A stretch of DNA of 35,758 nucleotides, taken from the IMG/VR virus record IMGVR_UViG_3300010885_080705, positions 1-35,758 of that record; one strand, written 5' to 3'. Below, in pieces: positions 13,370-32,472 of this stretch (positions are counted from its first letter, which is position 1; each line of letters starts with the position of its first letter). A program made the position numbers and the translations under genes. The notes under the pieces were generated by a model. It did no database searches. It worked only from the letters and a program-made list of their open reading frames with translations, and had not been told where the DNA came from. The stretch is from a virus.

Positions 13370-14614
13370 ATGGCAAACATAAAAAAAGTAAAAGCAGATC
13401 TACCATTAGCCCAAGTAGAAAAACCCAAAGACAACAGCGTAAGACGTAATTTAATTGCAAATATTACAAAAGATATCAACAAGTCAAAAGGAGAGAAAGT
13501 TGCCTTTAATCTTATTGAAGATAAAGATGCTCCAACAAATGTATCAGACTGGATTAGTACTACTAGCATTAAGCTAGATTATATTATCGCAAATAGAAGA
13601 CCAGGAGGAATTCCTGGCGGCAGAATTATTGAAATTTTTGGCGAACCATCATCAGGTAAATCTACCCTTGCACAAACCATCTGTGCTCAACACCAAAAAA
13701 ATGGTGGGATTGCAGTTTATATCGATTCAGAAAATGCTACCTCATTAGAAAACCTAGCTTTACTAGGTGTTAATGTAGAAGAACTAATCTTTGTTCAAGA
13801 ACAGTGTATTGAAGATACATTCCAATTAATTGAGCAGATTATTACATCTGTTAAAAATCAAATGAATGATGTTCCAATCCTAATTGTATGGGATTCTGTT
13901 GCCGCATCTGTTTCAAGGACAGAATTAGAAGCAACATACGAACAACAGCAAATTGGTATTAAAGCAAGAGCTCTTAGTAAAGGAATTATGAAAGTAAACC
14001 AAATCTTAAAAGATAAGGGTGTTACTTTGATTTTGCTAAATCAAACGAGACAAAAAATTGGTGTGATTGGGTCCGATCCAACCACAACTCCTGGGGGTAT
14101 GGCGATTCCATTTGCCGCATCAGTTAGGCTGCGAGTTTATACTCCTTCTAAAATCAAAGAACTTGTTGACAAGCAAGAAGTAATCAAAGGTATTGAAATA
14201 AGAGTTGGTGCAGTAAAAAACAAGGTTGCAAGACCTTACCGTCAAACAACCATTCAAATTCTCTATGGAAAAGGAGTAACCGATTCAGAGCTTCTGTTTG
14301 ATGATTTGCGTGTATTTTGTGAATCATCTACCTATAAAGAAAAACGGGCTAAATATGCCTATAAAGATGGTATCGTAGCTAATATACATGGATCTGGTGG
14401 TTGGAAACATATTCAACTTCTTGATAGTAACACTGGAGAAATTGTTAAAGAACAAAACTTTAGAAAAGATGAGTTCGAAAGCAAGATTCTAAATAATCCT
14501 GAATATAAAGAGTATATTTTGGCTTTATGTGATGGGTGTTTTATCCTTAATGCTGTTGAAAAGGATGAAGTAACAAAAATCTCTGGCGAAGTTGACGAAA
14601 ATGCACTTACATAA
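13370..14614 (+). CDS. RecA/UvsX-like recombinase
   Basis: A 414-aa RecA-fold ATPase. Walker A is GEPSSGKST (91-99), preceded by GGIPGGRIIEIF. The stretch AVYIDSENATS carries the conserved DxE-type segment, and Walker B is in ILIVWDSVAA. GSDPTTTPGGMAIPF covers loop L2, with LNQTRQKIG before it. It would catalyse strand exchange in recombination-dependent replication and repair with the SSB encoded just upstream. The C-terminal ~130 residues, including YKEKRAKYAYKDG and an acidic end, are typical of longer phage versions. An AAAGG RBS lies before the ATG. Confidence 0.92.
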   Translation: MANIKKVKADLPLAQVEKPKDNSVRRNLIANITKDINKSKGEKVAFNLIEDKDAPTNVSDWISTTSIKLDYIIANRRPGGIPGGRIIEIFGEPSSGKSTLAQTICAQHQKNGGIAVYIDSENATSLENLALLGVNVEELIFVQEQCIEDTFQLIEQIITSVKNQMNDVPILIVWDSVAASVSRTELEATYEQQQIGIKARALSKGIMKVNQILKDKGVTLILLNQTRQKIGVIGSDPTTTPGGMAIPFAASVRLRVYTPSKIKELVDKQEVIKGIEIRVGAVKNKVARPYRQTTIQILYGKGVTDSELLFDDLRVFCESSTYKEKRAKYAYKDGIVANIHGSGGWKHIQLLDSNTGEIVKEQNFRKDEFESKILNNPEYKEYILALCDGCFILNAVEKDEVTKISGEVDENALT

Positions 14615-17781: not shown

Positions 17782-19716
17782 ATGTCACTTCTAGAAAAAC
17801 GTATTACTTACAAACCTTTCTCATATAACCAAGCTTATGACTATTGGCTCAAACAGCAGCAAAGCCATTGGATTCCAACCGAAGTACAAATGGCTTCAGA
17901 TGTCCAAGATTGGAAACTAAATTTAACAGAGTCAGAAAAATCAGTTATTGCTGGTGTCCTAAAAGGATTTATTCAGACAGAACTAATTGTTGAAGACTAT
18001 TGGGCAACAAGGGTTGCCAAATGGTTCCCACATCCAGAAATCCAAATGATGGCTTCTACGTTTGGCTCTTTTGAATGCTTTGATAAAGAAACAGAGCTTT
18101 TAACTGCCACGGGTTGGAAAAATGTTACTACCTTGTCAATGAATGATAAGATTGCTCAATATGATATTAAATCTAAAAAGATTACATTTGTTAATCCCCT
18201 AAAAGTTGTAAGTTACGATTATAATGGTAAATTACACTACTATAATTCTAGCACAACAAATATTTGCGTTACACCAAACCATGATCTTGTTTTAATTCAC
18301 CCAAAAACAAAAAAGGCACAAAAAAAGAAATCAATGGAAGGCAAGTGGGGAAGAAATTACCTGTATCCTATTGCTGGAATTGGCGACGGCAAACAAGATA
18401 CCTTGTCTGCTTATGAAAAGCTATTGATTGCCGTTCAAGCTGATGGAACTTTGCGTGGATTGTGCCCACAAAGCAATAAAACATGGAAAACTTGTGATAT
18501 TAATCTAAAGAAAGAGCGTAAAATAAAACGTCTTGAGAGTTTGCTAAAACAATCTAAAATTGAGTTTAGTAAACGTATAACTGAAGATGGTTTTACACTG
18601 TTCACATTTTGTCTTCAAAATCAAACTGATATTAATCTAGTTAAATCTTTTGAATGTTTTAATCTATCAGATTTTTCTGTTGAAAAAGCCAAAGAATTTA
18701 TTGAAGAGTTAATTTTTTGGGATGGATCTGCTAATAGACTTTGGTACAATACAAATAAACAAGCAGTAGATTTTGTACAAGCGATTGCTGTACTTGGCAA
18801 TATTAGCGCCCAAGTTAGTATGAATCGTACAAAAGAAGAATCTCTAAAAAACAAATTGCCACAAGGTACAACTCCAAAAACAGCAAAAGATTGCTTTGTT
18901 ATTAGTTTCTCTGACCAAGTAAATAGAACCTATCCACATAGAGTGGAAGTGGATTACAATGATAAAGTTTATTGTGTATCAGTTCCAACACAGAACATTA
19001 TTTCGAGAAGAAACAATAAAGTTGCTATCACTGGAAATACAATTCATACTGTCGCTTATGCTTATCTAAACGATACATTAGGGCTAACTGATTATGACGC
19101 ATTCCTACAAGAACCAACTGCAAAGGCTAAGATTGATAGATTAATCAATATTGATCCACAATCAACTGATCTTAAAGAAATTGCCGCATCACTAGCCATC
19201 TTTTCTGCCTTTACAGAAGGCGTTTCCCTATTCTCAAGTTTCGCTATCCTGTTTAACTTCTCAAGGTTTAACAAACTAAAAGGAGTTTCACAAATTATTA
19301 GTTGGAGTGTGTTGGATGAATCATTGCATTCTCAAGCTGGAACATGGTTATTTAGGACTCTAATTCAAGAAAACCCAGAAATTTGGACTGATGATGTTAA
19401 GCAAAAAATTTATGAAGCTGCAAGAGAAACCATTAAACTAGAAGATAATTTTATTGATATGGTGTTTAAAGATGGTGAGATTGAAGGTGTTAATACTCAC
19501 GATCTTAAACAGTTTATCAGGCACCGTGCTAACGTAAAACTTGGTGAGGTATTGTGCAAAACTAACTGGAAGAATATAGATCAAGACTCCCTTAAACGTA
19601 TGGCTTGGTTTGACACACTGTCGCAAGGTATTGCCCAACAAGACTTTTTTAGCGGCAGAGAATTTAGCTACGGTAAGGGTGTGGTAGATTTCGGTAAAAT
19701 CTTTCAAGACGATTGA
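17782..19716 (+). CDS. nrdB: Ribonucleotide reductase class I small subunit with an in-frame intein
   Basis: The 644-aa precursor contains a 321-aa intein (residues 99-419), leaving a 323-aa mature NrdB. The exteins carry the di-iron ligands (Glu in ELIVEDYW, Glu98, and the His of TIH after the intein). They also carry the radical Tyr four residues after that His (TVAY, matching Tyr122 of E. coli), and the later ELxxS/DESLHSQ ligands. It generates the tyrosyl radical for the NrdA encoded 24 bases downstream. Splicing joins FGSFE to TIHTVAYAYL, restoring the E-x-x-H motif, so the enzyme cannot work unspliced. AGGAG lies 15 bases before the ATG, which is long. The pair is probably co-transcribed with the helicase gene. 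Confidence 0.93.
   Translation: MSLLEKRITYKPFSYNQAYDYWLKQQQSHWIPTEVQMASDVQDWKLNLTESEKSVIAGVLKGFIQTELIVEDYWATRVAKWFPHPEIQMMASTFGSFECFDKETELLTATGWKNVTTLSMNDKIAQYDIKSKKITFVNPLKVVSYDYNGKLHYYNSSTTNICVTPNHDLVLIHPKTKKAQKKKSMEGKWGRNYLYPIAGIGDGKQDTLSAYEKLLIAVQADGTLRGLCPQSNKTWKTCDINLKKERKIKRLESLLKQSKIEFSKRITEDGFTLFTFCLQNQTDINLVKSFECFNLSDFSVEKAKEFIEELIFWDGSANRLWYNTNKQAVDFVQAIAVLGNISAQVSMNRTKEESLKNKLPQGTTPKTAKDCFVISFSDQVNRTYPHRVEVDYNDKVYCVSVPTQNIISRRNNKVAITGNTIHTVAYAYLNDTLGLTDYDAFLQEPTAKAKIDRLINIDPQSTDLKEIAASLAIFSAFTEGVSLFSSFAILFNFSRFNKLKGVSQIISWSVLDESLHSQAGTWLFRTLIQENPEIWTDDVKQKIYEAARETIKLEDNFIDMVFKDGEIEGVNTHDLKQFIRHRANVKLGEVLCKTNWKNIDQDSLKRMAWFDTLSQGIAQQDFFSGREFSYGKGVVDFGKIFQDD
18076..19038 (+). mobile_element. 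NrdB intein with LAGLIDADG-type endonuclease domain
   Basis: The intein spans residues 99-419 of the precursor. It starts with Cys99 (CFDKETELLTATGW, block A), has TPNH in CVTPNHDLVL (block B) and ends VAITGN before Thr420 (block G, with Gly in place of the usual penultimate His). The middle has two DOD-like motifs, LLIAVQADGTLRG and FIEELIFWDGSANR, so a two-motif homing endonuclease is present, possibly active. Block F is represented by KVYCVSVPTQN. The insertion point lies between the metal-ligand Glu and the Thr of the ETIH motif. Confidence 0.92.
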
Positions 19717-19740: not shown

Positions 19741-21957
19741 ATGAAACTAAACTTAGAAGAACTAAAACTTAACGGTGAAGCGGCTGAATGGCACACAGAT
19801 GAATCAATTAAAACTCTAGAAAACGGTTATTTGCTGGAGGGAGAAACTCCTAAATCCATGTATAGCAGAATTGCTAGGGCTGTGGCATCAAGGCTTAATA
19901 AACCAGAACTAGAACAAAAGTTTTTTGATTATATGTGGAAAGGTTGGCTTGGACCCGCTTCACCAGTTTGTGCAAATATGGGAACAGAGCGTGGCTTACC
20001 TATTTCTTGCTATTCAGTTCATGTTGGTGATGCCGTTAATGATATTATGGATTCTATGAGTGAGTTAGCGGCACTATCAAAACATGGTGGTGGTGTTGGT
20101 ATGCATTGGAATGATGTTCGTTCACGGGGCAGCGAAATTTCAAACGGCAACGGTAAATCAGATGGAGTTATTCCATTTCTAAAAATTCAAGACTCTACAA
20201 CAATTGGAATTTCCCAGGGTGGTGTACGCAGAGGTGCTAGTGCTGCGTATCTCCCAGTAGATCATGGAGATGTTGAAGAATTCTTGAAAATGCGTAGACC
20301 GCAAGGAGATACCAACCGTCAATGCCTAAACATCCATCATGGAATTAATGTTTCTGATTCTTTTATGAATCGTGTTATTGATAAAAAAGATAAAGAAGCT
20401 AGATCTCTTTGGGTTGAAATCATGAAAACAAGATATGAAACAGGAGAACCATATCTTTTTTTCTCTGATAATGTCGATAAAAACAGACCTGAGATTTATA
20501 AAAAACTTGGCCTAGATGTAAAAGGATCGAATATTTGCTGTGTCTCTGGTGATACACTTATTTTGACAAAGCAAGGTCCGCAAAGAATTGATTCACTTAC
20601 AGGCAAGACAGTAGAAATATGGGATGGAAAGGAATGGGTGTTAAATAATACCTTTAGCCAACGTGGAGTTGACAAGCTGATTAGAGTAAGAATTTCAGAT
20701 GGTTCATTTATTGATTCAAATGCTAACCATAGATGGTTTGTTGCTAAGAACTATAAGACTCATTGTGATAGAAAACATAAAGAAACTTACACAAAAGATC
20801 TTAAGATTGGTCAGTGGGTTGAATCTCATAATATTGACAGTAAAACATGCAAACCTCTTGCTAAAAGACGTAAAGCCGCAAGGATTGTATCAATCGAAAC
20901 ATTATCTGGAGATCACCCAGTCTATTGTCCAACATTACCATCTACAGGTAAATTTGGTTTGGCTAATGGTCTTATGACTGGAAATACAGAAATTTTCCTG
21001 CACACTGATAAAGATCACAGTTTTGTATGTTGTCTTTCCTCTTTGAATCTTGCTAAATATGATGAATGGAAAGATACAGATGTAATGTACTATTCCACTT
21101 GGTTTCTTGATGGAGTTATGCAAGAGTTTATTGAAAAGGCAAAATCAAAACCTGGTTTTGAACGAGCAGTAAGATTCGCAGAAAAATCAAGAGCACTTGG
21201 TCTTGGCGTTCTTGGATTTCATACTCTTTTACAAAAACGTATGTTACCATATGATCATTTTGATACCTTTATGCTAAATGCAGAAATTTTCCGCAACCTA
21301 GATCGGGAAACAAAACGGGCATCAGAAGATTTGGCGAAAGAATATGGAGAGCCAGAATGGTGTAAAGGATTTGGAGTGAGAAATACTCACAGAGTTGCAC
21401 TAGCTCCAACAGTATCAAACTCTATTATTTCAGGAAACGTTTCACCATCTATTGAACCATGGACTGCAAATTCTTTTGCTAAAAAGTCTGCAAAAGGGAC
21501 ATTTATTCATCGTAACAAAGAACTAGAAGTAATCTTAGAAGCTAAAGGTAAAAATACTGAATCTGTATGGGCATCTATTGTTGGTAATCAAGGATCAGTA
21601 CAACATCTTGACTTTTTAACAAAACAAGAAAAAGATGTGTTTTTAACAGCAAGAGAGATTAATCAATTTGTTCTTATTAAACTTGCAGGGCAACGTCAAC
21701 GCTGGATTGACCAAGGGCAATCTATTAACCTTTTCTTTCCTTCAAATGTTGATCCAAAGTACTTTCATGATGTTCATGTAATGGCATGGAAAGAGGGTTT
21801 AAATACTCTATACTATTGCCGTACTTCTTCTCCACTTAAGGGAGATGCTGGATCAAGGGAGTATGATAGAAAAACAATAGATGCTCAAGCAGAAGCAGTT
21901 GTAGATAATACTCCATATTCAAGAAGTGCTTCTGAGTGTGTTGCATGTGAAGGTTAA
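19741..21957 (+). CDS. nrdA: Ribonucleotide reductase class I large subunit with a mini-intein
   Basis: The 738-aa precursor includes a 149-aa intein (267-415) and yields a 589-aa enzyme, clearly shorter than E. coli NrdA (761 aa). The N-terminal ATP-cone is missing, so dATP inhibition through that domain is not expected. The exteins show PISCYSV (Cys225 equivalent), SNIC (Cys266, thiyl-radical Cys439 equivalent) followed after splicing by TEI (Glu441 equivalent), and FVCCLSSLNL (Cys462 region). They also show LNTLYYC (Tyr730-Tyr731 pair) and the C-terminal CVAC redox pair. It reduces ribonucleotides together with NrdB. An AGAGGA Shine-Dalgarno precedes the ATG. Confidence 0.93.
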   Translation: MKLNLEELKLNGEAAEWHTDESIKTLENGYLLEGETPKSMYSRIARAVASRLNKPELEQKFFDYMWKGWLGPASPVCANMGTERGLPISCYSVHVGDAVNDIMDSMSELAALSKHGGGVGMHWNDVRSRGSEISNGNGKSDGVIPFLKIQDSTTIGISQGGVRRGASAAYLPVDHGDVEEFLKMRRPQGDTNRQCLNIHHGINVSDSFMNRVIDKKDKEARSLWVEIMKTRYETGEPYLFFSDNVDKNRPEIYKKLGLDVKGSNICCVSGDTLILTKQGPQRIDSLTGKTVEIWDGKEWVLNNTFSQRGVDKLIRVRISDGSFIDSNANHRWFVAKNYKTHCDRKHKETYTKDLKIGQWVESHNIDSKTCKPLAKRRKAARIVSIETLSGDHPVYCPTLPSTGKFGLANGLMTGNTEIFLHTDKDHSFVCCLSSLNLAKYDEWKDTDVMYYSTWFLDGVMQEFIEKAKSKPGFERAVRFAEKSRALGLGVLGFHTLLQKRMLPYDHFDTFMLNAEIFRNLDRETKRASEDLAKEYGEPEWCKGFGVRNTHRVALAPTVSNSIISGNVSPSIEPWTANSFAKKSAKGTFIHRNKELEVILEAKGKNTESVWASIVGNQGSVQHLDFLTKQEKDVFLTAREINQFVLIKLAGQRQRWIDQGQSINLFFPSNVDPKYFHDVHVMAWKEGLNTLYYCRTSSPLKGDAGSREYDRKTIDAQAEAVVDNTPYSRSASECVACEG
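20539..20985 (+). other. NrdA mini-intein (no endonuclease)
   Basis: The intein spans residues 267-415. It starts CVSGDTLILTKQGPQRI (block A), has SNANHRWFV as block B, and ends SGDHPVYCP...GLMTGN before Thr416. At about 149 aa it is a splicing-only mini-intein without LAGLIDADG or HNH motifs. As in the NrdB intein, the penultimate residue is Gly instead of His and the +1 residue is Thr. It sits immediately after the catalytic Cys266. Confidence 0.92.
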
Positions 21958-23031: not shown

Positions 23032-23543
23032 TGAGAGATAAATTTCAAGATTTATTTGGGGCAACACCAGAAACTACTCAAAAGATAAAAGAACAATTTT
23101 GTTATAAAACTTTTAGTTTTGAAATAGGTAATATATCAGTTAGCACATATCATGTACCAATGGCATCCAGAGATAAGTTGGAATTGACTAAAAAGTCAAT
23201 TGACTCTTTGGAGTGTATTAACAAAAACCAATATAAATTTAAATCAACAAGATATATCTTTAAAGAAGATTCTTTTGAAAGTAAAGAGGTAAGACGAGTA
23301 GATTATTTTTTAAATGATCCAAGATCAAACCTTCATATTTTTGCGCCAACACTTGATAGTTTTGACTTAATACTTTTGGACATTGCCCCGTACTGGGAAG
23401 ATGTATACAGTCTCCAGCTAACCAACAACATAAGTCATGGATCAAACATATATTCATTTTGTGCTAAAATACTGACACAATATGGTATGTTTTACTGTGA
23501 ACTATATGATTGTTTTCTTAAACAAAAGAGAATATCAACATGA
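23031..23543 (+). CDS. Hypothetical protein, 170 aa
   Basis: Unrecognised. It starts within the TAATG overlap with the 88-aa gene and ends in an ATGA overlap with the polymerase gene, so three genes are chained. The sequence alternates charged and aromatic residues (YFLNDPRSNLHIFAP, LILLDIAPYWEDVYSL) with no signal peptide, membrane segment or known motif. It contains several Cys residues (CYK, LECIN, FCAK, CELYDC) in no zinc-ribbon spacing. Confidence 0.6.
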   Translation: MRDKFQDLFGATPETTQKIKEQFCYKTFSFEIGNISVSTYHVPMASRDKLELTKKSIDSLECINKNQYKFKSTRYIFKEDSFESKEVRRVDYFLNDPRSNLHIFAPTLDSFDLILLDIAPYWEDVYSLQLTNNISHGSNIYSFCAKILTQYGMFYCELYDCFLKQKRIST

Positions 23544-25381
23544 GAGAACCTACTAAGTTTGTTAATCTACATGCTCACTCTAACGGTAGTATTGGAGATG
23601 CCATTTCCCTCCCGCCAGAACATTTTGAGTTTGCCCGCCAAAATGGTTTGGACGCCCATGCTATCACGGATCATGGTAACATGAACACGTTTTCACATTC
23701 ATATAAGCAATATGAAGAGTATGAAAAGAAAGGTGTTCCATTCAAGGTTTTGTACGGTAATGAAGCTTACTTTATTCCCTCTCTAAAAGAATGGGAAAAA
23801 CTCAAGCAAAAGAGGGCGGCAGAGAAAGCTGCTGAGAAGCTTGAGAAAAAGTCTTCTACCAAAAAATCTGCTGTATACGAACAAGCGATGGAAGCTATTG
23901 TTACTGAGTTTCTTCAAGACGAAGAAAACAATCGTGCCTTGAAAGATCATGACGAAAATCAAGATGCTTTGGTTGCTATCAAAGAAGATGCGGAAGGTAA
24001 TGAAGATACAACAGTTGTAGAAAATGAAGAGGAAACAAAAGCTCTAAAGAAGCCCTCTGATCCTCTTAGACAAAGAAACCATTTGGTGTTGCTTGCTAAA
24101 AATCTTCAAGGGCTAAAAAGCCTGTTTAAACTTACATCTCTCTCTTATAGAGACGGTATGTATTATTTTCCACGTATGGATTTTGATATGTTGCGAGAAC
24201 ATGCCAAAGGCAACATTATCGCTTCAAGTGCTTGTTTGGGCTCAGCACTTAATAATGCTATCATTGAAAATACAATCGATCTTGGTCTATCAAAAGAAGC
24301 TTATGAACAAAGTTTTACTTTGTTGAAGTCTCATAACTTTGACAAGATTCAAAAACAAATTGAAGCCCTCGCATGGCAGTTTGTTGAAGTTTTGGGCGGC
24401 ATTGAGAACTACTATCTTGAAATTCAGTTTAACAAACTGCCATATCAGCATATCCTAAACTATCACTTGATTGAACTATCAAAACGCACTGGCATTAAGC
24501 TACTAGCAACGGCTGACTGCCATTATCCAGATCCAAAACTCTGGAAAGAACGCTTGATCTACAAAGCAATGTCAAAAATGACGGCTGAAAAGCTAAAAGA
24601 GTTTGATATGTCACAGTTTCCTCAGATGGTTGAAGAACTAGAGTGCGAACTGTATCCTAAAAATGCCAAACAAATGTGGGACACATACATTAACAACTGC
24701 GTCCAAGGTTGCCCAGAAGTTTATAACGATCCTTCATACCATGATATGGTTTGTGATGCTATTGAACGCAGCCATGATATCGCACATAACTATATCGACA
24801 AGATTCCTTTTGATCGTTCTCCAAAACTACCATCGCTGGATAAACTTGTTCCTATAAACAAACTGCATCAAGCTAAACTTGAAGGTCTTAATGAAGAGGA
24901 GATTTCATTCAATGAATTGGTAGATAGTACAATCTCTGGGCTAACAACCAGAGGTTTGATTGAAGATACCAAGTATGTTGATCGTGCAATGGAAGAACTT
25001 GATGTAATTCGTCATCTTAAGCTTCCAAAATACTTCCTAACTTGTGCTCAATCTCTTAACTTGATTGGTGAAAAGATGTTTTTGGGAGCAGGTAGAGGAT
25101 GCTTTTTGCCAAATACTCCTGTTAAACTTGCTGATAATACAGATATCTTTATTCAAGATATTAAACCAAATCAGTTTGTTTATACACACAACGGAGAAGC
25201 AAAAGAGATTTTGCGTGTATGGGATTACGATGTAGATGAAGAAGTTTTGACACTTGAATTTCAAGATGGACGAGCTATAAGCTGCACAAAAGATCATAAG
25301 TTTCTAACTGCTTCAAGAGGATGGGTTTCTGCTGATAATCTTACAGAATTCGATGAAATTGTGGATGTGTTGTCGCCGTGA
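23540..25381 (+). CDS. dnaE: DNA polymerase III alpha-type (DnaE) N-terminal half fused to a split-intein N-fragment
   Basis: 613 aa. Residues 1-520 are the N-extein: a PHP domain with NLHAHSNGSIGD (9-20) and AITDHGN (41-47), GNEAYFI, then HLVLLAKNLQGLKSLF and YYFPRMDFDML, with SSACLGSALNNAI and LATADCHYP after them. It stops in the palm at LGAGRG (515-520), where complete enzymes continue with a Ser/Gly-rich loop and then the catalytic Asp residues. Residues 521-613 are an intein N-half. The charged stretch at about 85-180 is an insertion in the PHP domain. The polymerase palm, fingers and beta-binding parts must come from another gene outside this window. The ATG overlaps the previous stop (ATGA). 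Confidence 0.88.
   Translation: MREPTKFVNLHAHSNGSIGDAISLPPEHFEFARQNGLDAHAITDHGNMNTFSHSYKQYEEYEKKGVPFKVLYGNEAYFIPSLKEWEKLKQKRAAEKAAEKLEKKSSTKKSAVYEQAMEAIVTEFLQDEENNRALKDHDENQDALVAIKEDAEGNEDTTVVENEEETKALKKPSDPLRQRNHLVLLAKNLQGLKSLFKLTSLSYRDGMYYFPRMDFDMLREHAKGNIIASSACLGSALNNAIIENTIDLGLSKEAYEQSFTLLKSHNFDKIQKQIEALAWQFVEVLGGIENYYLEIQFNKLPYQHILNYHLIELSKRTGIKLLATADCHYPDPKLWKERLIYKAMSKMTAEKLKEFDMSQFPQMVEELECELYPKNAKQMWDTYINNCVQGCPEVYNDPSYHDMVCDAIERSHDIAHNYIDKIPFDRSPKLPSLDKLVPINKLHQAKLEGLNEEEISFNELVDSTISGLTTRGLIEDTKYVDRAMEELDVIRHLKLPKYFLTCAQSLNLIGEKMFLGAGRGCFLPNTPVKLADNTDIFIQDIKPNQFVYTHNGEAKEILRVWDYDVDEEVLTLEFQDGRAISCTKDHKFLTASRGWVSADNLTEFDEIVDVLSP
25100..25378 (+). other. Split-intein N-fragment of DnaE (93 residues, no C-half in the window)
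   Basis: Residues 521-613 begin with the nucleophile Cys521 (CFLPNTPVKLADNTDI, block A), show LTLEFQDGRAISCTKDHKFLT with TKDH as block B, and stop at IVDVLSP. The length and end point match known split-intein N-halves (about 100 aa). A complete intein would need a further ~35-aa C-half with a terminal Asn and then the C-extein. No such sequence begins any ORF here. The downstream GTG gene at 25378 does not encode one. Confidence 0.88.
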
Positions 25382-25635: not shown

Positions 25636-25959
25636 ATGGATTGGGAAGAAACTGGACTTTTAGACGATTTAACCGCTTATCAGGCAGAAGTGGCAATAAG
25701 TCGATTAGACTATTTGCAAACAGCATTTAGTATTGTAAACGAAATTGATGCGGAAAAAAGGATTGCATCAGAACATTATAAAAATATTTTATTTGCGTTA
25801 ACAAATATTCTTTGTCATCAAAATATCTATTTTGATGAACAAGCGTTACTGGCAATAACCTCCAGAAAAATAAAACAAAATCCGCAATCAGTAACAAAAC
25901 CAGCAGAATTTATTGCTGAAGTTGTATCTGAAATTTCATTTGATATAAATCAAAAATAA
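25636..25959 (+). CDS. Hypothetical protein, 107 aa
   Basis: Unrecognised. A mostly helical small acidic protein (LDDLTAYQAEVAISRLDYLQTAF, ASEHYKNILFALTNILCHQNI). A TAATAT hexamer ends six bases before the ATG and no SD is seen, similar to the leaderless arrangement elsewhere, though no good -35 goes with it. A stem-loop overlaps its stop. Confidence 0.6.
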   Translation: MDWEETGLLDDLTAYQAEVAISRLDYLQTAFSIVNEIDAEKRIASEHYKNILFALTNILCHQNIYFDEQALLAITSRKIKQNPQSVTKPAEFIAEVVSEISFDINQK

Positions 25960-25979
25960 CTCTATTTAATGTTAGAGTT
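25958..25979. repeat. Stem-loop overlapping a stop codon
   Basis: AACTCTA and TAGAGTT pair perfectly over an eight-base loop, starting within the TAA at 25957-25959. There is no U-tract, and the next gene starts five bases after the stem. Confidence 0.45.
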
Positions 25980-25984
25980 GTAAG

Positions 25985-26407
25985 TTGATAATTCCAACTA
26001 GGCAAACGATAAAAAGATCAATAATAAAAAATCGTGGAACTGAAGACACGTATATGATGTTTTTTCAGATACTCCAAGACGATGACGACCAAACATACTT
26101 TTTTAATTTAATTGGACTTTACCCAGAAGAAATAAAATCTTTAAAGCCAATAAAGCATATTACAAATAGACGTATGCGGCAGTTTTTTCAATCAAACTAT
26201 GACATAAATGACATGGGAAAATATAGAGAAGAAAGAGAAATAATAAATTGTTATTTTCCTGCAACTCTATACGAAGACCCAGACAAAGTAAAATACTTTG
26301 TTTTTTCATTTTGTCAAAAATATTTAGAAAACAAGGGTTTGTTGAAAAAATTACCTGAGATTAAAGTAGTTTTAGATAACAAACAAAACAGCACTACTAA
26401 AAAATAG
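25985..26407 (+). CDS. Hypothetical protein, 140 aa (probable TTG start)
   Basis: Unrecognised. The frame begins with TTG at 25985; the next Met is at about residue 24, so the start is uncertain. The sequence is basic at the N-terminus (TRQTIKRSIIKNRG), then acidic (ILQDDDDQTYFF), with aromatic-rich segments (RRMRQFFQSNYDIND, NCYFPATLYEDPDKVKYFVF) and a basic tail. No known motif. Confidence 0.55.
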   Translation: MIIPTRQTIKRSIIKNRGTEDTYMMFFQILQDDDDQTYFFNLIGLYPEEIKSLKPIKHITNRRMRQFFQSNYDINDMGKYREEREIINCYFPATLYEDPDKVKYFVFSFCQKYLENKGLLKKLPEIKVVLDNKQNSTTKK

Positions 26408-26411
26408 TCTT

Positions 26412-26855
26412 ATGTCTAATAGAACATGTGTTAAGTTTCCAAAAAGTAAAAAACCAAGACCAAAAATAAATTATCATTGTCTTTTAACTCTTCAAGAAAG
26501 AGTTTCTGTATTAAAATCCAAAAGACATATGAATTATATTATTGTTAAAAAGTTCTCATCATATAAACAGTGGATCAAGTCTATTGCTCAAAGTCCAAAA
26601 GGTAAAGCTGAATTAAAAAGTTCTATTGGATCTTTTAAACACATGAATTATTATATGAATAAGGTTTTTCTAAAAGGTGAACTTTATTGGGTTTATCCAA
26701 CGGTTGATTCAAAAGATCAAATAAATTTCGGTAATTTTCGATCAAATGCTATAAAAGACTTGTCTGGGTTTTTGGTTAGCAAACCAACCCTAAATTATCT
26801 TAAATCTCTTGGCAAGAAAATAATTGATCAACCAAGTATTGAAATAATTTGGTAG
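26412..26855 (+). CDS. Hypothetical protein, 147 aa
   Basis: Unrecognised, strongly basic protein that begins four bases after the previous stop. It contains KFPKSKKPRPKINYHC near the start and ends LGKKIIDQPSIEIIW. Its last ~20 residues resemble the end of the next protein (KIID-x-PSI), suggesting diverged paralogues. A nucleic-acid-binding role would fit the charge but is only a guess. Confidence 0.55.
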   Translation: MSNRTCVKFPKSKKPRPKINYHCLLTLQERVSVLKSKRHMNYIIVKKFSSYKQWIKSIAQSPKGKAELKSSIGSFKHMNYYMNKVFLKGELYWVYPTVDSKDQINFGNFRSNAIKDLSGFLVSKPTLNYLKSLGKKIIDQPSIEIIW

Positions 26856-26863
26856 GTGATGCC

Positions 26864-27328
26864 ATGGCACAAATTATAAAGCATTTAAAGCAAAAGCAAA
26901 ATATAAATTTTGTAACAATAAGTTTTGGCAATTTACTTAGAAAGATTTCTAGGTCAATTTTTTCAAAGTATACTAGTAATATACCATCAGTTACAAATGA
27001 TAATATTGTTGTTTATGACAATTCCAATTATTATGTACTTGTTATATCTGAATGGTTATCCGAGAGAAAAACAAAAGCATTATGGCATAAGTTTACAAAA
27101 AAAGATTATCCAAGATTTCTTTTAGAATACAAAAAACCATTTGCTGTATTTGATATAATTTCGTTGCGAAGAGAACAAGATATTTATGATTTAAATTATA
27201 ATAAAATAAGAGAAGATATTAATAAAAGAAATTATGTTTGGCTTCTAACAAGAAAAAGGTTTTTAAATTTAAAAGAAACTAAAAACTTTAAAATTATTGA
27301 TACCCCATCTATTTCAGTAACTTATTGA
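26864..27328 (+). CDS. Hypothetical protein, 154 aa
   Basis: Unrecognised, basic protein. The chosen ATG at 26864 has AGGTG five bases upstream; an in-frame TTG at 26849 would overlap the previous gene. It contains YVLVISEWLSERKTKALW and YVWLLTRKRFLNL and ends NFKIIDTPSISVTY, like the end of the preceding protein. Confidence 0.55.
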   Translation: MAQIIKHLKQKQNINFVTISFGNLLRKISRSIFSKYTSNIPSVTNDNIVVYDNSNYYVLVISEWLSERKTKALWHKFTKKDYPRFLLEYKKPFAVFDIISLRREQDIYDLNYNKIREDINKRNYVWLLTRKRFLNLKETKNFKIIDTPSISVTY

Positions 27329-27353
27329 CTTTATCTTATCAGTGCTTAATCAT
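27325..27353 (+). promoter_or_regulatory. Possible promoter abutting the MazG/Nmad1-like start codon
   Basis: TTGACT (27325-27330), 17 bases and AATCAT (27348-27353) end six bases before the ATG at 27360. The -35 is good, the -10 weak. The geometry matches the clearer leaderless promoters at 7364 and 8517, and no SD is present. Confidence 0.3.
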
Positions 27354-27359
27354 ATATGC

Positions 27360-27707
27360 ATGAGCTTAAAAACCTTTAAAGATATTGCCTCGGAAACGGC
27401 TGAAATCTTAGAGATAAAAAACAGAGCATATGGTAATTCATTCAACAAAACAACAGAATTCTTAAAGCTGTTATTTCCTGATGGAGTTGTTGATGACCAA
27501 TATTGTCATCTAATGTATATCATTAGAGTTCTTGATAAAATTGGACGTATAGCTAATAGCAGTTTACTACCACCAGAAGAAGGTATTATTGATGCTTATA
27601 AAGATATCAACGGTTATACAACATTAATGCTAAAAATGTTGTATGATGATATGGAAAAACAAAATCAAGAGGCAGCAGAAAATGAAACAACAATTACTTC
27701 GGGATGA
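27360..27707 (+). CDS. MazG-like / Nmad1-like helical protein
   Basis: A 115-aa all-helical protein with the pattern IKNRAYGNSFNKTTEFLKLLFPDG, then MYIIRVLDKIGRIAN and EGIIDAYKDINGYTTLM. The order of NxxYGxS, RxxDKxxRI and a C-terminal DAYxDxxGY matches small phage proteins of the DUF1599 (nucleotide-modification-associated domain 1) and MazG-like group. Such proteins may hydrolyse or sense nucleotides. The ATG at 27360 is preferred to the in-frame start at 27342. Assignment is by eye. Confidence 0.6.
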   Translation: MSLKTFKDIASETAEILEIKNRAYGNSFNKTTEFLKLLFPDGVVDDQYCHLMYIIRVLDKIGRIANSSLLPPEEGIIDAYKDINGYTTLMLKMLYDDMEKQNQEAAENETTITSG

Positions 27708-27915
27708 AGTTCTTTGCAGCAAAGGACAATTGGTAGCAAAAGCCAGAACATTTCTTGTGAAAGACGATTTTGGCAACGACAGACAAAGATATTCAGAAAT
27801 TTATTTTGTTATGGGTACTAATACACCACTAGACTCAGTTGGCTTTACCCCACAAGAGTTTCAAGTTGTATACAATAGATTTAATGAATGGCTTCAAAAA
27901 AACCATGAAGTCTAA
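27682..27915 (+). CDS. Hypothetical protein, 77 aa
   Basis: Unrecognised. It overlaps the end of the MazG/Nmad1-like gene by 26 bases in another frame, with AAGAGG at acceptable distance before the ATG at 27682. The sequence is beta-alpha in character (ARTFLVKDDFGNDRQRYSEIYFVMG, then FTPQEFQVVYNRFNEWLQ). The overlap suggests co-translation with the upstream protein. Confidence 0.5.
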   Translation: MKQQLLRDEVLCSKGQLVAKARTFLVKDDFGNDRQRYSEIYFVMGTNTPLDSVGFTPQEFQVVYNRFNEWLQKNHEV

Positions 27916-28030
27916 AAAAGTAATTCCACCTGATGATTCACAGACCAACCAAGAAAGTGAATGTAGGGTGTTGACGACGGGGGAAGACGACTTAAACTGT
28001 AGAACACGAAACGAGGAAACAACAAATAAT

Positions 28031-28267
28031 ATGATTACAACACTAATTGAACATAACTTCCGTGGCTCATCTGCTATCTCATCATTCCGCTGGGTTGCTT
28101 CACGCACCGATCACACAGTTGGAAATATGACAGTAACTTTCACGGACGGCAATCGCTATATGTATCGTAACGTCAACAAGACAACTGCTCGCAACTGGAT
28201 GCGAGTCCAAAGTGCTGGTGGTTACTTCCAACGTCACCTAAAACCACTTCGCAGCGAACGAGTTTGA
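28031..28267 (+). CDS. KTSC-domain protein 1
   Basis: A 78-aa KTSC domain: SSAISSFRWVAS, then MTVTFTDGNRYMYRNV and WMRVQSAGGYFQRHLKP, the strand-strand-helix order typical of this family, which is named for similarity to the end of lysyl-tRNA synthetases. Function unknown. The ATG at 28031 has GAGGAAA upstream, and a TTGACG-N16-TAAACT sequence at 27971-27998 could be its promoter. The frame is open back to 27839, but that part is low in family signal. Its codons are richer in C-ending triplets than those of neighbours, a possible sign of high expression. Confidence 0.65.
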   Translation: MITTLIEHNFRGSSAISSFRWVASRTDHTVGNMTVTFTDGNRYMYRNVNKTTARNWMRVQSAGGYFQRHLKPLRSERV

Positions 28268-28279
28268 TACATACAAACG

Positions 28280-28341
28280 CTCCTGAAATAAACTAAAGGA
28301 GAAAACGGTAAAGCCTCTTGAGATTAACTCTCGGAGGCTTT
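28280..28341 (+). promoter_or_regulatory. Two-hairpin intergenic element with a hidden Shine-Dalgarno-like AGGAG
   Basis: CTCCT (28280-28284) can pair with AGGAG (28297-28301), a strong SD with no credible start codon after it. Immediately downstream, AAAGCCTC (28310-28317) pairs with GAGGCTTT (28334-28341), with an extra GAG/CTC pairing in its loop. The second hairpin looks like a terminator but is followed by only a poor U-tract. An attenuator, a 3'-end structure or a small RNA are possible. Confidence 0.4.
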
Positions 28342-28352
28342 ATCTATTTGTG

Positions 28353-28769
28353 ATGCTAAAATTCCTCTACACCAAGGAACTAGAGCCAGATAAGTATTCA
28401 ATCAACATGTACTCAAAAAATGAACAGTTGATTGGGTATATTACTTTTGTGATCCCTTCTCTGCAAACCCTCAACAGGTTGTTGAACAAAAAATCATCAA
28501 AAAATTTTAAAAAATGGTGGGAAGATCAGTATCTCAATAAACCATATGTGGATTATTCATTTATTAATATTGAATATAGAAATAAAGGGTATGGAAAAAG
28601 ATTGTATAAAGCGGCATCTTTGTGTTTAAAACTAAAATATGGACTTAAACTATATGCCTCTGGCAATCAAAGTAAAGAAGCTAAAAATCTTTGGCAATCT
28701 CTAAAAAAAGAAAATGACCCTTACTTCATCATTACTGGTGAATATCTTGAGGCAAAGATTAAATCATAG
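28353..28769 (+). CDS. GNAT-like N-acetyltransferase
   Basis: A 138-aa protein with the GNAT core: IGYITFVIP as a central strand, then FINIEYRNKGYGKRLYKAASL (about 70-90), where R-x-x-G-x-G/A binds acetyl-CoA, and LKLYASGNQSKEAKNLWQSL as the C-terminal beta-alpha unit. Acceptor unknown. A GTG lies directly before the ATG; ATG was chosen. It lies between KTSC genes 1 and 2. Confidence 0.7.
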   Translation: MLKFLYTKELEPDKYSINMYSKNEQLIGYITFVIPSLQTLNRLLNKKSSKNFKKWWEDQYLNKPYVDYSFINIEYRNKGYGKRLYKAASLCLKLKYGLKLYASGNQSKEAKNLWQSLKKENDPYFIITGEYLEAKIKS

Positions 28770-28777
28770 AGGTAAAA

Positions 28778-29014
28778 ATGTTAGAAACTCTTGAAAAAGA
28801 ACAACTGGATACCGAAACAAGTAGTTTGTTAACCAGAGCGGAATATGATCCATTAATGCATCATATGCATATTTGGTTTAAGAACTCAGGGGCAAAATAT
28901 ACTTATAAAGGGGTACCAGAAGAAACTTGGGCTGAATTTAAAGCAAGTGAAAGCAAAGGAAAATACTTCCATATGTTTATAAAAAATGTTTTTAGTTTCC
29001 AAAAAGAAACATAG
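28778..29014 (+). CDS. KTSC-domain protein 2
   Basis: A 78-aa KTSC protein: SSLLTRAEYDPLMHHMHIWFKNSGAKYTYKGVP, then WAEFKASESKGKYFHMFIKN. AGAGGT precedes the ATG at good spacing. It is a diverged paralogue of the genes at 28031 and 29027 and is short enough to be the domain alone. Confidence 0.7.
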   Translation: MLETLEKEQLDTETSSLLTRAEYDPLMHHMHIWFKNSGAKYTYKGVPEETWAEFKASESKGKYFHMFIKNVFSFQKET

Positions 29015-29026
29015 ATAATTAGCAAC

Positions 29027-29311
29027 ATGATCTTATTAAAAGAGCTGCTTGGGTTAGATGAAGAGGCTATTGATGAAATTCCACTTAATAGTTCTGCGAT
29101 ATTAGATGCTGAATATGACGAATCAACGGGCGAAATGCGTATTAGATTCGCTGCCAATCCAATAGCAACATACCTTTTCCCAGGGGTTCCAAAAGATGTG
29201 TTTGACCAATTTATAAGACTTGATAAAACAAAAGGGGAAAGCCCAGGCAGGTTTTATAACACTATAATCAAACCAGCTTATGCGGCAAATATTACCAGAA
29301 TAACAAGATAA
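29027..29311 (+). CDS. KTSC-domain protein 3
   Basis: A 94-aa protein with an acidic N-terminal extension and then a KTSC domain: SSAILDAEYDESTGEMRIRF, TYLFPGVPKDVFDQF, SPGRFYNTIIKP. The third KTSC copy in 1.3 kb. No strong SD is visible. A weak AT-rich inverted repeat (AAGATAA/TTATCTT) follows its stop. Confidence 0.7.
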   Translation: MILLKELLGLDEEAIDEIPLNSSAILDAEYDESTGEMRIRFAANPIATYLFPGVPKDVFDQFIRLDKTKGESPGRFYNTIIKPAYAANITRITR

Positions 29312-29331
29312 TAGTTTATTATGTTCTTATC

Positions 29332-29362
29332 TTGACTTTATTTTCGTGGTAGTTAAGATTAT
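29332..29362 (+). promoter_or_regulatory. Candidate promoter for the subtilase gene
   Basis: TTGACT (29332-29337) with either TAAGAT (29354-29359, 16-base spacer) or GATTAT (29357-29362, 19-base spacer) lies in the gap between the KTSC gene and the subtilase ATG at 29389. The -10 choice is unclear. Confidence 0.35.
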
Positions 29363-29388
29363 CCTGTTACAGAAAGTTGAGAAGTTAA

Positions 29389-31095
29389 ATGAAGAAAAAT
29401 TTAAGTCTTTTAGTTTTTGGACTTATTTTATTTGTGTTGCAAAATATTGCATTTGCTCAATCAAGAGAACAACCAAATCACCAAGAAATGATTGTTGATT
29501 TTCAAGATTCAGCATCAGAAGCAGAAGTTAGGCAAATTGCTAATTCTGTTGGTATCACACTAAGGGCAAATAGCCCGCAGATGGTATCCCAAGATAGAAT
29601 TTATACATTTGATGCATCAAACCAAAACCAACAAGATGTTATTAACATACTAAGACAAAACTCTTTGGTCCAAAGTGTTGGAGAAAATACAACCATGCAT
29701 ATTTTTTGGACTCCAAACGATCCTCAGTTTGGAGATCAATGGGGTTTTAGAAGAACCGAAACAGAAACCGCATGGAATTATACTTGCGGAAGAAATATTC
29801 GTGTTGCGGTTGTTGATACAGGGGTTGCTTGTGAAAATCATCAAAATTTTAGCAGGTTAACCGATTTGGCCCATACACGCTGTATGCAAGGGTGGAATTT
29901 CGTTTCTGACGACGAACATCCAAATGACGATCAAGGCCATGGAACACACGTTGCTGGTACTATTGCACAAACAACAAATAATGCTTTTGGTGGTGCTGGT
30001 ATTGCACATTGTTCTACTATTATTCCTGTTAAAGTTCTTGATAGAAATGGATCAGGAACAACTGCCGACGTAGTTGAAGGCATCCGTTTTGCCGCTGATT
30101 CTGGGGCTCACGTTATTAACTTGTCCCTTGGTGGTGGTGGCAGATCTAAAATTATGGAAGACGTTATTGCATATGCCAGAAGTAGAGGTTCTGTTGTAGT
30201 TTGTGCGGCTGGTAATAATGGTAGGTTTGTAGAATCGCCAGCAAGTGAACCAGGAGCATTTACTGTTAGTGCTATTGGTGTTGGTGATCAAATAGCTCCA
30301 TTTTCCTCAAGAGGACCAGAAGTAGATATTGCTGCACCTGGAGTTAATATCCTTCAACAAACAATTTGTGATCATGGCAGAAATCATTGTGAAGAATTTG
30401 CTTCATGGAGTGGCACATCAATGGCTACGCCACATGTGGCAGGAATTGCAGCACTGATAATGTCTATGGGTGTTACAAATCCAAGCGCAGTTGAATCTGT
30501 TTTAAGGTCAAGTGCTCAAAGACCAGATCATGGTATTAGAGATCCAAATCTTTACGGTGCTGGCATTGCAAATGCTGCGACGGCAGTAAAAGCGGTACAA
30601 AATCGTCAACTGTTTGCAAGAAGTTTTGCGTTTTGTTTAATTTTGGCCGCAGTCTTTAAACGAATTAAAGATAAAGGCGGCAAACTAGAAAACCCTGTTT
30701 TGTGGCTTGGTCCTGCCTTTTTTGCGGCATATGGACTATTCTTTCTGCCAAGAGTTATTCCACACACAATCCCAGCCGTAGAATATCTAATGCGTCCCCC
30801 AGGAGACTGGACAATTCTATCTAATCTAACAATTCATAAGTTTCTTCCGCTAGGAAGTTCATTTATTCCACTCGGATTGGCTGCAACGTTTTATAATAAC
30901 AAGCGACTAAGACCACTCATTGGTGGATATTCTCTAGGCACCGCTGCTTATCTACTTGGAACATTTCTAACAAACTTCCACGCCTCTCCATTTGGTTGGT
31001 TTGGATTACTAATTTGGACCGTTGCAAATGTAGTAGTTATGGGTGTTTTGGCCAGACTTACTCTTGACTTGACAAAAAACAATGCACAAGTTTAG
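29389..31095 (+). CDS. Secreted S8 subtilisin-like protease with C-terminal membrane domain
   Basis: 568 aa. Residues 1-24 are a Sec signal peptide (KKNLSLLVFGLILFVLQ, cleavage after AFA). Residues about 33-105 resemble an I9-type inhibitor prodomain. The catalytic triad is complete: Asp143 in VAVVDTGV, His184 in GHGTHVAGT and Ser344 in SGTSMATPHVAG, with the oxyanion Asn276 in AAGNNG. From about 408, four or five hydrophobic segments follow (for example FAFCLILAAVF, PAFFAAYGLFFL, FIPLGLAATF, LLIWTVANVVVM), so the mature protease is probably anchored with its catalytic domain outside the cytoplasm. A substrate at the cell envelope is likely. It has its own probable promoter and then runs directly into DHFR. 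An acquired host gene is likely. Confidence 0.88.
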   Translation: MKKNLSLLVFGLILFVLQNIAFAQSREQPNHQEMIVDFQDSASEAEVRQIANSVGITLRANSPQMVSQDRIYTFDASNQNQQDVINILRQNSLVQSVGENTTMHIFWTPNDPQFGDQWGFRRTETETAWNYTCGRNIRVAVVDTGVACENHQNFSRLTDLAHTRCMQGWNFVSDDEHPNDDQGHGTHVAGTIAQTTNNAFGGAGIAHCSTIIPVKVLDRNGSGTTADVVEGIRFAADSGAHVINLSLGGGGRSKIMEDVIAYARSRGSVVVCAAGNNGRFVESPASEPGAFTVSAIGVGDQIAPFSSRGPEVDIAAPGVNILQQTICDHGRNHCEEFASWSGTSMATPHVAGIAALIMSMGVTNPSAVESVLRSSAQRPDHGIRDPNLYGAGIANAATAVKAVQNRQLFARSFAFCLILAAVFKRIKDKGGKLENPVLWLGPAFFAAYGLFFLPRVIPHTIPAVEYLMRPPGDWTILSNLTIHKFLPLGSSFIPLGLAATFYNNKRLRPLIGGYSLGTAAYLLGTFLTNFHASPFGWFGLLIWTVANVVVMGVLARLTLDLTKNNAQV

Positions 31096-31098
31096 TGA

Positions 31099-31641
31099 AT
31101 GTTGTCTATAATTGTTGCTGGTTCAACAGAAGGGGTGATCGGATTTGGCAATGCCTTAATTTGGCATCTACCATCCGATCTTAAGCATTTTAGGGATACA
31201 ACGCTTAATAAAACTGTTGTAATGGGCAAGAACACTTATCTTTCGATAGGCAAACCTTTGCCAAAAAGAATAAATCACGTTATTAGTTCTACAATTAGTA
31301 ACCAAGAAAATATTACTGTGTTTAGCTCAATTCAAGAGTGGTTAGAGATTAATCATAAATTGGTTGAGTCTGATAGTGAAGATGTGTTTATTTGCGGCGG
31401 CAAAATAATATATGAAGAGTTTTTGCCATACACAAAAAGAGTTTATTATTCAAATGTACTTGTTGGCAAACAATTAGATCATACTGAATATGATACTAAA
31501 ATATTCTCTGTGTACGATTTAATTGATTCTGGTCAATGGGATGTAAAATCTGCAATCGCAGTACATGACCAAGAATCTTATTTGTTATCAGATAAAACAA
31601 AACCACTAACTTATACTAAGTTTGTTCTAGAAAGAAAATAA
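31099..31641 (+). CDS. Dihydrofolate reductase
   Basis: A 180-aa DHFR. SIIVAGSTEGVIGFGNALIWHLPSDLKHFRDTT (3-35) holds the Met20-loop-type region, the L-x-W-x-x-P motif and Asp26 of the folate site. VVMGKNTYLSIGKPLP carries the NADPH phosphate Lys/Thr motif, and VFICGGKIIYEEFLP is the GG dinucleotide-binding site. It regenerates tetrahydrofolate from the dihydrofolate released by the thymidylate synthase encoded three bases downstream, which supports a real dTMP-making role for that enzyme. A tandem TTGACTTGACA at 31064-31074 lies 25-35 bases before the ATG, but no good -10 goes with it. No SD is visible. Confidence 0.93.
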   Translation: MLSIIVAGSTEGVIGFGNALIWHLPSDLKHFRDTTLNKTVVMGKNTYLSIGKPLPKRINHVISSTISNQENITVFSSIQEWLEINHKLVESDSEDVFICGGKIIYEEFLPYTKRVYYSNVLVGKQLDHTEYDTKIFSVYDLIDSGQWDVKSAIAVHDQESYLLSDKTKPLTYTKFVLERK

Positions 31642-31644
31642 AGT

Positions 31645-32472
31645 ATGATTAAGGCAGACTATTATTTTAAAAATAACCTAAATAAAATTTTGGTTGAAGG
31701 TTTTACGGATGAAAACCCAAGACCAAAATATAAAGATGGAATAGTTGCACATAGTAAATATATTACACAAGTTTTTGAAGAATATGATCTTGATCTTGGT
31801 GAATTCCCTATCACAACTTTAAGAAACACAGCTATCAAAACTGGTATTAAAGAGATTTTATGGATTTACCAGAAACAGTCTAATAGCCTTTCTACTGCCA
31901 GAGAAATGGGAATTAATTGGTGGGACGAATGGGATATTGGAGATGGTACAATTGGTCAAAGATACGGGGCAACAGTAAAAAAATGGGGCTTAATGGATAA
32001 TCTTTTAGATGGGTTAAAATCTGACCCATATTCAAGACGGCACATTTTAAACATGTATCAATATTCTGATTTAAACGAAACAAAAGGTTTGTATCCTTGT
32101 GCATATGAGACACTTTGGTCTGTAAGGAAACAGCAAGGTATAAAATATCTTGATATGACCTTAATACAACGTAGTAGTGATTATATCATGGCTAACATGA
32201 TTAACAAAATACAATATGTTGCATTGATGATGATGGTTGCTGGGCATTTTGGGTATAATATTGGAAAGTTCTCTCATTTTGTACAAAACCTTCACATTTA
32301 TGACAGGCATATAAATGCTGCAAATGAGATCCTAGACAGAAGTCCATTAGCAGCACAACCAAGAATTGAACTAAAAACTAATAAAAACTTTTATGAGTAT
32401 AATGTAGAAGATTTCAATATTGTTGATAATGTTGGAACCAAACTAGAATCAAAGCTTGAAATAGCGGTATAA
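31645..32472 (+). CDS. thyA: Thymidylate synthase (ThyA type)
   Basis: 275 aa, with a Firmicutes-like ThyA pattern: ENPRPKYKDGIVAHSKYI, FPITTLRNTAIKTGIKEILWIYQ and WWDEWDIGDGTIGQRYG. The catalytic Cys is in YPCAYETLW, followed by QRSSDYIMANMIN and HFVQNLHIYDRH. The Asn at the end of QRSSDYIMANMIN aligns with Asn177 of E. coli, the residue that selects dUMP over dCMP, and the two Trp of WWDEW are retained as in true synthases. With DHFR next door, dTMP synthesis is favoured over a hydroxymethylase role. The usual Gln after the catalytic Cys (CxxxQ) is Glu here, which is worth noting. Confidence 0.92.
   Translation: MIKADYYFKNNLNKILVEGFTDENPRPKYKDGIVAHSKYITQVFEEYDLDLGEFPITTLRNTAIKTGIKEILWIYQKQSNSLSTAREMGINWWDEWDIGDGTIGQRYGATVKKWGLMDNLLDGLKSDPYSRRHILNMYQYSDLNETKGLYPCAYETLWSVRKQQGIKYLDMTLIQRSSDYIMANMINKIQYVALMMMVAGHFGYNIGKFSHFVQNLHIYDRHINAANEILDRSPLAAQPRIELKTNKNFYEYNVEDFNIVDNVGTKLESKLEIAV

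Follow-up and report, generated by a model that had tools for sequence, protein, structure and literature searches.

A phage DnaE gene ending in a split-intein N-half, and sister phages that encode the polymerase in four or more pieces

We analyzed a stretch of viral DNA (the window) that comprises the entire virus record IMGVR_UViG_3300010885_080705, of 35,758 bases, and probably represents only part of a larger genome. The open reading frame (ORF) at positions 23540 to 25381 encodes residues 1–520 of a DnaE polymerase followed by a 93-amino acid intein N-half, and then stops. We propose that it encodes the first of several DnaE pieces, which would be trans-spliced to pieces encoded elsewhere in the genome, and we give this scheme as a whole a probability of about 0.85. 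By analogy with sister phages, the working polymerase is probably joined post-translationally from at least four chains.

A DnaE fragment fused to a split-intein N-half

The same truncated ORF is found in three sister contigs: IMGVR_UViG_3300035183_001329 (L002, also G001), IMGVR_UViG_3300028826_000180 (G002, 172 kb) and IMGVR_UViG_3300043411_002890 (G003). The features of the window ORF, with the evidence for each, are the following:

23540..25381, + strand: DnaE piece 1 fused to the intein N-half, complete ORF including the stop codon, 613 amino acids (translation; Pfam; NCBIfam; same ORF in the three sister contigs)
23540..25099, + strand: N-extein, DnaE residues 1–520 (PHP domain and start of the palm), last residues LGAGRG (Pfam; TIGR00594; PDB)
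25100..25378, + strand: split-intein N-half (IntN), 93 amino acids, starting at Cys521 (TIGR01445; PDB match; intein tree)
25286..25297, + strand: block B motif TKDH, ORF residues 583–586, IntN residues 63–66 (translation; identical in 4 of 4 lineage members)
25379..25381, + strand: stop codon closing IntN, at an equivalent position in L002, G002 and G003 (translation; sister comparison)

Regarding the extein, the Pfam PHP model matches ORF residues 10–296 with 88.5 bits, the TIGR00594 match covers residues 171–520, and chains of pol III alpha in the PDB align with residues 181–251. Of Pfam DNA_pol3_alpha, only the start was matched (residues 476–520), and the catalytic motif PDIDxD is not present in the ORF. 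Cys521 adjoins LGAGRG, and from it to residue 613 there are 93 residues. Here the NCBIfam model TIGR01445 (intein_Nterm) matches residues 521–590 with 27.8 bits, above its cut-off of 24.5, while Pfam Intein_splicing (residues 551–608) reached 31.7 bits, slightly below its cut-off of 35.8, which is what a lone intein half should give. The solved structure closest to the window IntN is the NrdJ-1 split intein (E 2.8e-5), with DnaE inteins next. Cys1, a block B TxxH and a terminal stop, the marks of a class 1 split-intein N-half, are all found in the ORF. The preliminary description, made from the sequence alone, had placed a 93-residue intein N-half with Cys521 and TKDH right after LGAGRG, and both the translation and the TIGR01445 match bear this out.

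Over their full length, the sister ORFs are 60–61% identical to that of the window (61% for L002). Between L002 and G002, the ratio of non-synonymous to synonymous substitution rates (dN/dS) was 0.08 for the extein and 0.09 for IntN; between the window and G003, that of IntN was around 0.22, with dS near saturation. When the intein half of the window was compared with those of its sisters, the proportions of non-synonymous and synonymous differences were 0.34–0.37 (pN) vs 0.70–0.78 (pS), with synonymous sites near saturation. Non-synonymous change is thus far below synonymous change, which points to purifying selection on the intein half. In an intein tree of few columns and many forks without resolution, the window IntN fell among the split inteins that phages carry at this same site, the only well-supported clade for the window being that of four members with its three sisters. 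Its branch (0.51) is about equal to the paths leading to those sisters (0.41–0.50), so there is no clear signal of decay on the window side.

The remaining DnaE pieces in sister phages

All the evidence on later DnaE pieces comes from sister phages, at around 60% identity. The DnaE of G002 is encoded by four ORFs, all on one strand, which contain further N-halves and intein C-halves (IntC):

155483-153597, same strand as pieces 2–4: piece 1, matching the window ORF
138036-136633, same strand as piece 1: piece 2, with IntC, an extein containing PDIDSD, and a second IntN
136224-134974, same strand as piece 1: piece 3, with IntC, CGRHAGG, the fingers domain and a third IntN
134858-133674, same strand as piece 1: piece 4, with IntC, SHAISYS and the HhH region

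The C-half of G002 was missed by a scan with the window ORF alone and by one with an alignment of intact C-terminal parts, and was caught by a degenerate DNA pattern combining the intein-terminal Asn with the DnaE SxxGSL, which gave 58 virus loci, including L162 in G002. Piece 2 of this genome is laid out as MKLKSKTYRKYTGKVYDLSVENKSSYNVEGFPVHN/SGAGSLVCYLLGITQ...FLSKKKA/contiguous intein/SLPDIDSD...FKQIKS/second IntN, and in both G002 and G003 its IntC has around 35 amino acids and ends in HN, with SGAGSLV following (...VHN/SGAGSLV). Curated intein_Nterm and/or intein_Cterm models match pieces 2, 3 and 4 of G002. The expected catalytic aspartates are present in PDIDSD (piece 2) and FDFLAL (piece 3), and DNA_pol3_finger and HHH_6 were found alongside PDIDSD among sister pieces 2–4. 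In G003, DnaE is also encoded by four ORFs, running to the contig edge, and the L002 contig stops just past thymidylate synthase, before the expected piece 2.

Joining the G002 exteins at the predicted splice points gives a full-length DnaE of 1292 amino acids. Its four junctions align without gaps with intact phage DnaE, no residue being lost or added, and the same is true of every junction in the joined exteins of two more distant phages, G013 and G015. The residue that follows every junction is Ser or Cys. At the junction IKS/C-GRHAGG it is Cys in intein carriers and Ile or Leu in intact relatives; a Cys at +1 in carriers only fits the requirement of the splicing chemistry.

Pieces 1 and 2 are separated by 15.6 kb in G002 and around 11 kb in G003, with some 20 unrelated genes between them, whose order is common to the window, L002, G002 and G003, small local differences aside. 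A second gene of the kind expected in the preliminary description, with an IntC of about 35 amino acids ending in Asn or His-Asn ahead of the rest of the palm, is present in G002 and G003 (ending HN), at 11–16 kb from the N-half, and no such gene is found in the window contig. The suggestion that the polymerase consists of two chains did not hold, since the sister enzyme is encoded by four or more ORFs with three or four split inteins. The fracturing into many pieces and the distance between halves are new relative to the preliminary description.

Fragmentation goes further in distant phages, with three DnaE ORFs in L027, four in G013, five in G015 and about eight in G016, a 309-kb record with its DnaE ORFs at locus L232 (G016:C1:73000-88500). 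The middle piece of L027 has an extein of 33–34 residues and one piece of G016 an extein of seven (SGAPDID). At the G016 junction between 80997 and 79351, complete intein ends were not recognisable. An arrangement with at least four chains, two distant loci and at least three mutually selective split inteins, reaching around eight pieces in some jumbo phages, with exteins as short as seven residues around the catalytic aspartates, seems reasonably likely to us; selectivity between coexisting split inteins is expected because a wrong pairing would leave a stretch of the polymerase out. We also observed long nuclease-like ORFs between some of the DnaE pieces of G016.

Search for partner pieces in the window

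To the 3' side of piece 1, the window carries the genes that lie between DnaE pieces 1 and 2 in the sisters:

25636..32472, + strand: unrelated genes, in the same order as in the sisters (Pfam; gene order in the window, L002, G002 and G003)
29389-31095, + strand: subtilase (Pfam; gene order)
31099-31641, + strand: dihydrofolate reductase, DHFR (Pfam; gene order)
31645-32472, + strand: thymidylate synthase (Pfam; gene order)

With a profile of the remainder of DnaE, a six-frame search of the window gave no match, whereas in the sister regions that profile recovers all the pieces. Nor did a profile built from 58 intein C-halves of the GRG/S site give a significant match in the window (best E 0.65), and the short ORFs directly 3' of 25381 showed no IntC match in any frame. 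The absence of a partner half from the window, as first described, is therefore confirmed. We discarded as a partner the 970-amino acid minus-strand ORF at 1-2910, which encodes a repeat-rich fibre- or adhesin-like protein and not DnaE. The SHAEG motif recurs many times in this ORF, which also matches the YadA head weakly, runs off the contig, and is probably tail-fibre or adhesin-like.

Proposed assembly and alternatives

In the proposed scheme, the window ORF would contribute PHP and the beginning of the palm, joined to a naturally split intein N-half, and a gene at another place in the genome would encode the cognate C-half together with the polymerase piece that comes next. Once IntN of piece 1 has bound IntC of piece 2, the intein would fold and excise itself, ligating GRG to the Ser of SGAGSLV, so that the ligated product would contain the junction peptide GAGRGSGAGSLV. 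Binding, excision and ligation follow established intein chemistry. Judging from the sister phages, at least two more rounds of trans-splicing would then attach the pieces that contain the catalytic aspartates and the C-terminal part. By the same reasoning, the window phage would possess the further pieces, these would splice, and the product would be the replicative polymerase.

Some observations weigh against this scheme. No piece 2 of the window phage was detected in the 35.8-kb contig, nor does one stand at the position it has in the sisters: piece 2 of G002 begins around 1.2 kb past thymidylate synthase, whereas the window runs 3.3 kb past it through other genes, so that the partner in the window phage must be elsewhere or absent. 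Besides, the identity between window and sisters is lower in IntN (48–50%) than in the extein (62–63%). One could argue from the missing partner that the ORF is a remnant, in which the C-terminal pieces were lost, the N-piece is decaying or repurposed (for example, for PHP alone), and another polymerase replicates the genome. The window does contain a family-A-like polymerase ORF (11210-12241), also found in the sisters, and a primase-polymerase (3871-5994). However, the DnaE ORF is intact, its intein half retains C1 and TKDH, and its branch is not clearly accelerated when compared to sisters that have the other pieces; moreover, sisters with the same family-A-like ORF still have intact DnaE pieces. 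We consider a remnant unlikely.

As split intein halves are generally known to bind tightly, they could also hold the pieces together as mere dimerising tags in a non-covalent multi-subunit polymerase, with no ligation. Yet the junctions examined (G002, G013 and G015) retain C1 and TKDH as well as the terminal Asn and a Ser or Cys at +1, and the replacement of Ile or Leu by a +1 Cys only in intein carriers is expected of ligation and not of binding, which leaves this reading very improbable. Finally, one contig alone might be wrong, and the break could come from a sequencing or assembly error in a continuous intein, the possibility that the preliminary description had set against its own reading; or it could be an RNA intron instead of an intein, as many gene breaks of Jug phages are group I introns (PMC12363816). 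The presence of the same truncated ORF in three sisters makes a sequencing error unlikely, and the stop at an equivalent position in four independent contigs contradicts it and led us to reject a frameshift or assembly error. An Rfam scan of the window at the gathering threshold detected no group I intron and no other family, and no IntC follows downstream in any frame. Error or intron is thus scarcely credible, and trans-splicing to pieces encoded elsewhere remains our preferred explanation.

The GRG/S site and comparison with known systems

Besides the window, 24 distinct virus loci with an N-half in the available sequence have a split intein at GRG/S, and another 11 have a contiguous one (virus loci being counted as distinct C-halves); about ten more are probably split. 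IntN measures 89–100 amino acids at these 24 loci (89–92 in 22 of them), compared with 93 in the window. With the truncated ORF also recurring in three sister contigs, chance does not account for the structure of the window gene. The distance from the stop of the N-ORF to the end of the C-half ranges from 0.15 to 2.4 kb in 22 of them and from 5.0 to 6.5 kb in the other two. In bacterial genomes we counted 34 contiguous GRG/S inteins and no clear split; two apparent splits were rejected, one being cut by the end of the available stretch and the other a chance match. GRG/S seems to be a common intein site whose split form is confined to phages in this sample.

Contiguous GRG/S DnaE inteins occur in Cyanobacteria, Campylobacterota, Aquificota and gp329 of Bacillus phage G. 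They share with the window the identical insertion site and the +1 Ser, and differ in lying within a single chain; many have 380–440 amino acids (endonuclease-sized) and others around 130–250. Hence, the claim that the site is unusual stands in that it differs from the cyanobacterial split site, but not as a new intein site. Among the matches listed for cultured phages, an intein at GRG/S was found only in phage G, where it is contiguous. In phage G (L012, 7662-11634 and 16605-17299), the DnaE gene is interrupted after this intein: gp330, an ORF for a homing endonuclease, separates gp329 from the DnaE-like ORFs that follow. The DnaE of Tenacibaculum phage Larrie is annotated as two adjacent coding sequences, and a Klebsiella phage was also among the matches.

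Fractured genes with split inteins are the subject of Dassa et al. 2009 (doi 10.1093/nar/gkp095, cited in PMC6892783). Reportedly, each of those loci has a single break, and its two halves lie next to each other with only an endonuclease gene separating them; they are said to cover eight enzyme types and presumably include NrdJ-1, whose intein is the closest PDB match of the window IntN. Like them, the window gene belongs to phage-type DNA metabolism and has a natural split intein with an N-half of around 90 amino acids. Unlike them, it has no C-half in the window, and in the sisters the pieces lie 11–16 kb apart, with unrelated genes instead of an endonuclease gene between them and three or more breaks in total. 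The distant relative L027 does have the fractured-gene layout of N-half, free-standing ORF and C-half. Its middle ORF (4926-5963) has no Pfam match, and its pattern FPDYIINDTTIIEVKSG recalls Vsr-like homing endonucleases.

The split DnaE of cyanobacteria (Ssp/Npu) is the same host protein, with IntN and IntC on separate distant genes and the same Cys1 and TxxH chemistry. Its site is directly before CFNKSHS, near the C-terminal part, whereas the GRG/S site of the window lies in the palm, before PDIDxD; counted along intact relatives, it comes around 420 residues earlier. The last split site of the sisters, FNQ/SHA, is near the cyanobacterial one, although not identical. The dnaE of Trichodesmium erythraeum (Liu and Yang 2003, listed in PMC5874633) resembles our case in having several inteins in one DnaE, at least one of them split; reportedly only one is split, giving two chains, in contrast to four or more here. 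Regarding other phages, the jumbo phage MIJ3 also has a replicative polymerase broken by a split intein, but its enzyme is a family B PolB with one break and an HNH gene between adjacent halves (PMC6892783). Jug phages have fragmented nrdD and polymerase genes, with group I introns behind much of the fragmentation (PMC12363816). No report of a single protein fractured by at least three split inteins turned up in the literature searched, which had few preprints and no subscription papers.

For an enzyme that needs several ordered ligations, these genomes raise the questions of how coexisting split inteins avoid wrong joins and whether the need for assembly times replication. The sister genomes provide matched sets of natural split inteins that act on a single protein, a useful resource for assembling proteins from several pieces. 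As for annotation, such genes look like truncated or missing polymerases, and phages seemingly without DnaE may have one in pieces.

Other inteins and polymerase-like genes

The family-A polymerase-like ORF of the window (11210-12241, 343 amino acids) is without the usual N-terminal part and has HDA, not HDE, as motif C. Its G002 homologue also has 343 amino acids, so this form is stable and not a recent truncation. Both ribonucleotide reductase subunits of the window (17782-19716 and 19741-21957) contain contiguous inteins, with ends ...CFDKETELLT...AITGN/TIHT in NrdB and ...CVSGDTLILT...LMTGN/TEIF in NrdA. The window RecA (13370-14614) is uninterrupted. In L002 (1822-2631 and 2751-3689) and G002 (164767-163955 and 163974-162076), the split intein that breaks RecA is atypical: its N-half has just around 18 residues (GDA/CVSPDTKIKIRTKMSNG, then stop), and its large C-half, ending INHN/TTTPGG, is preceded in G002 by a nuclease-like stretch.
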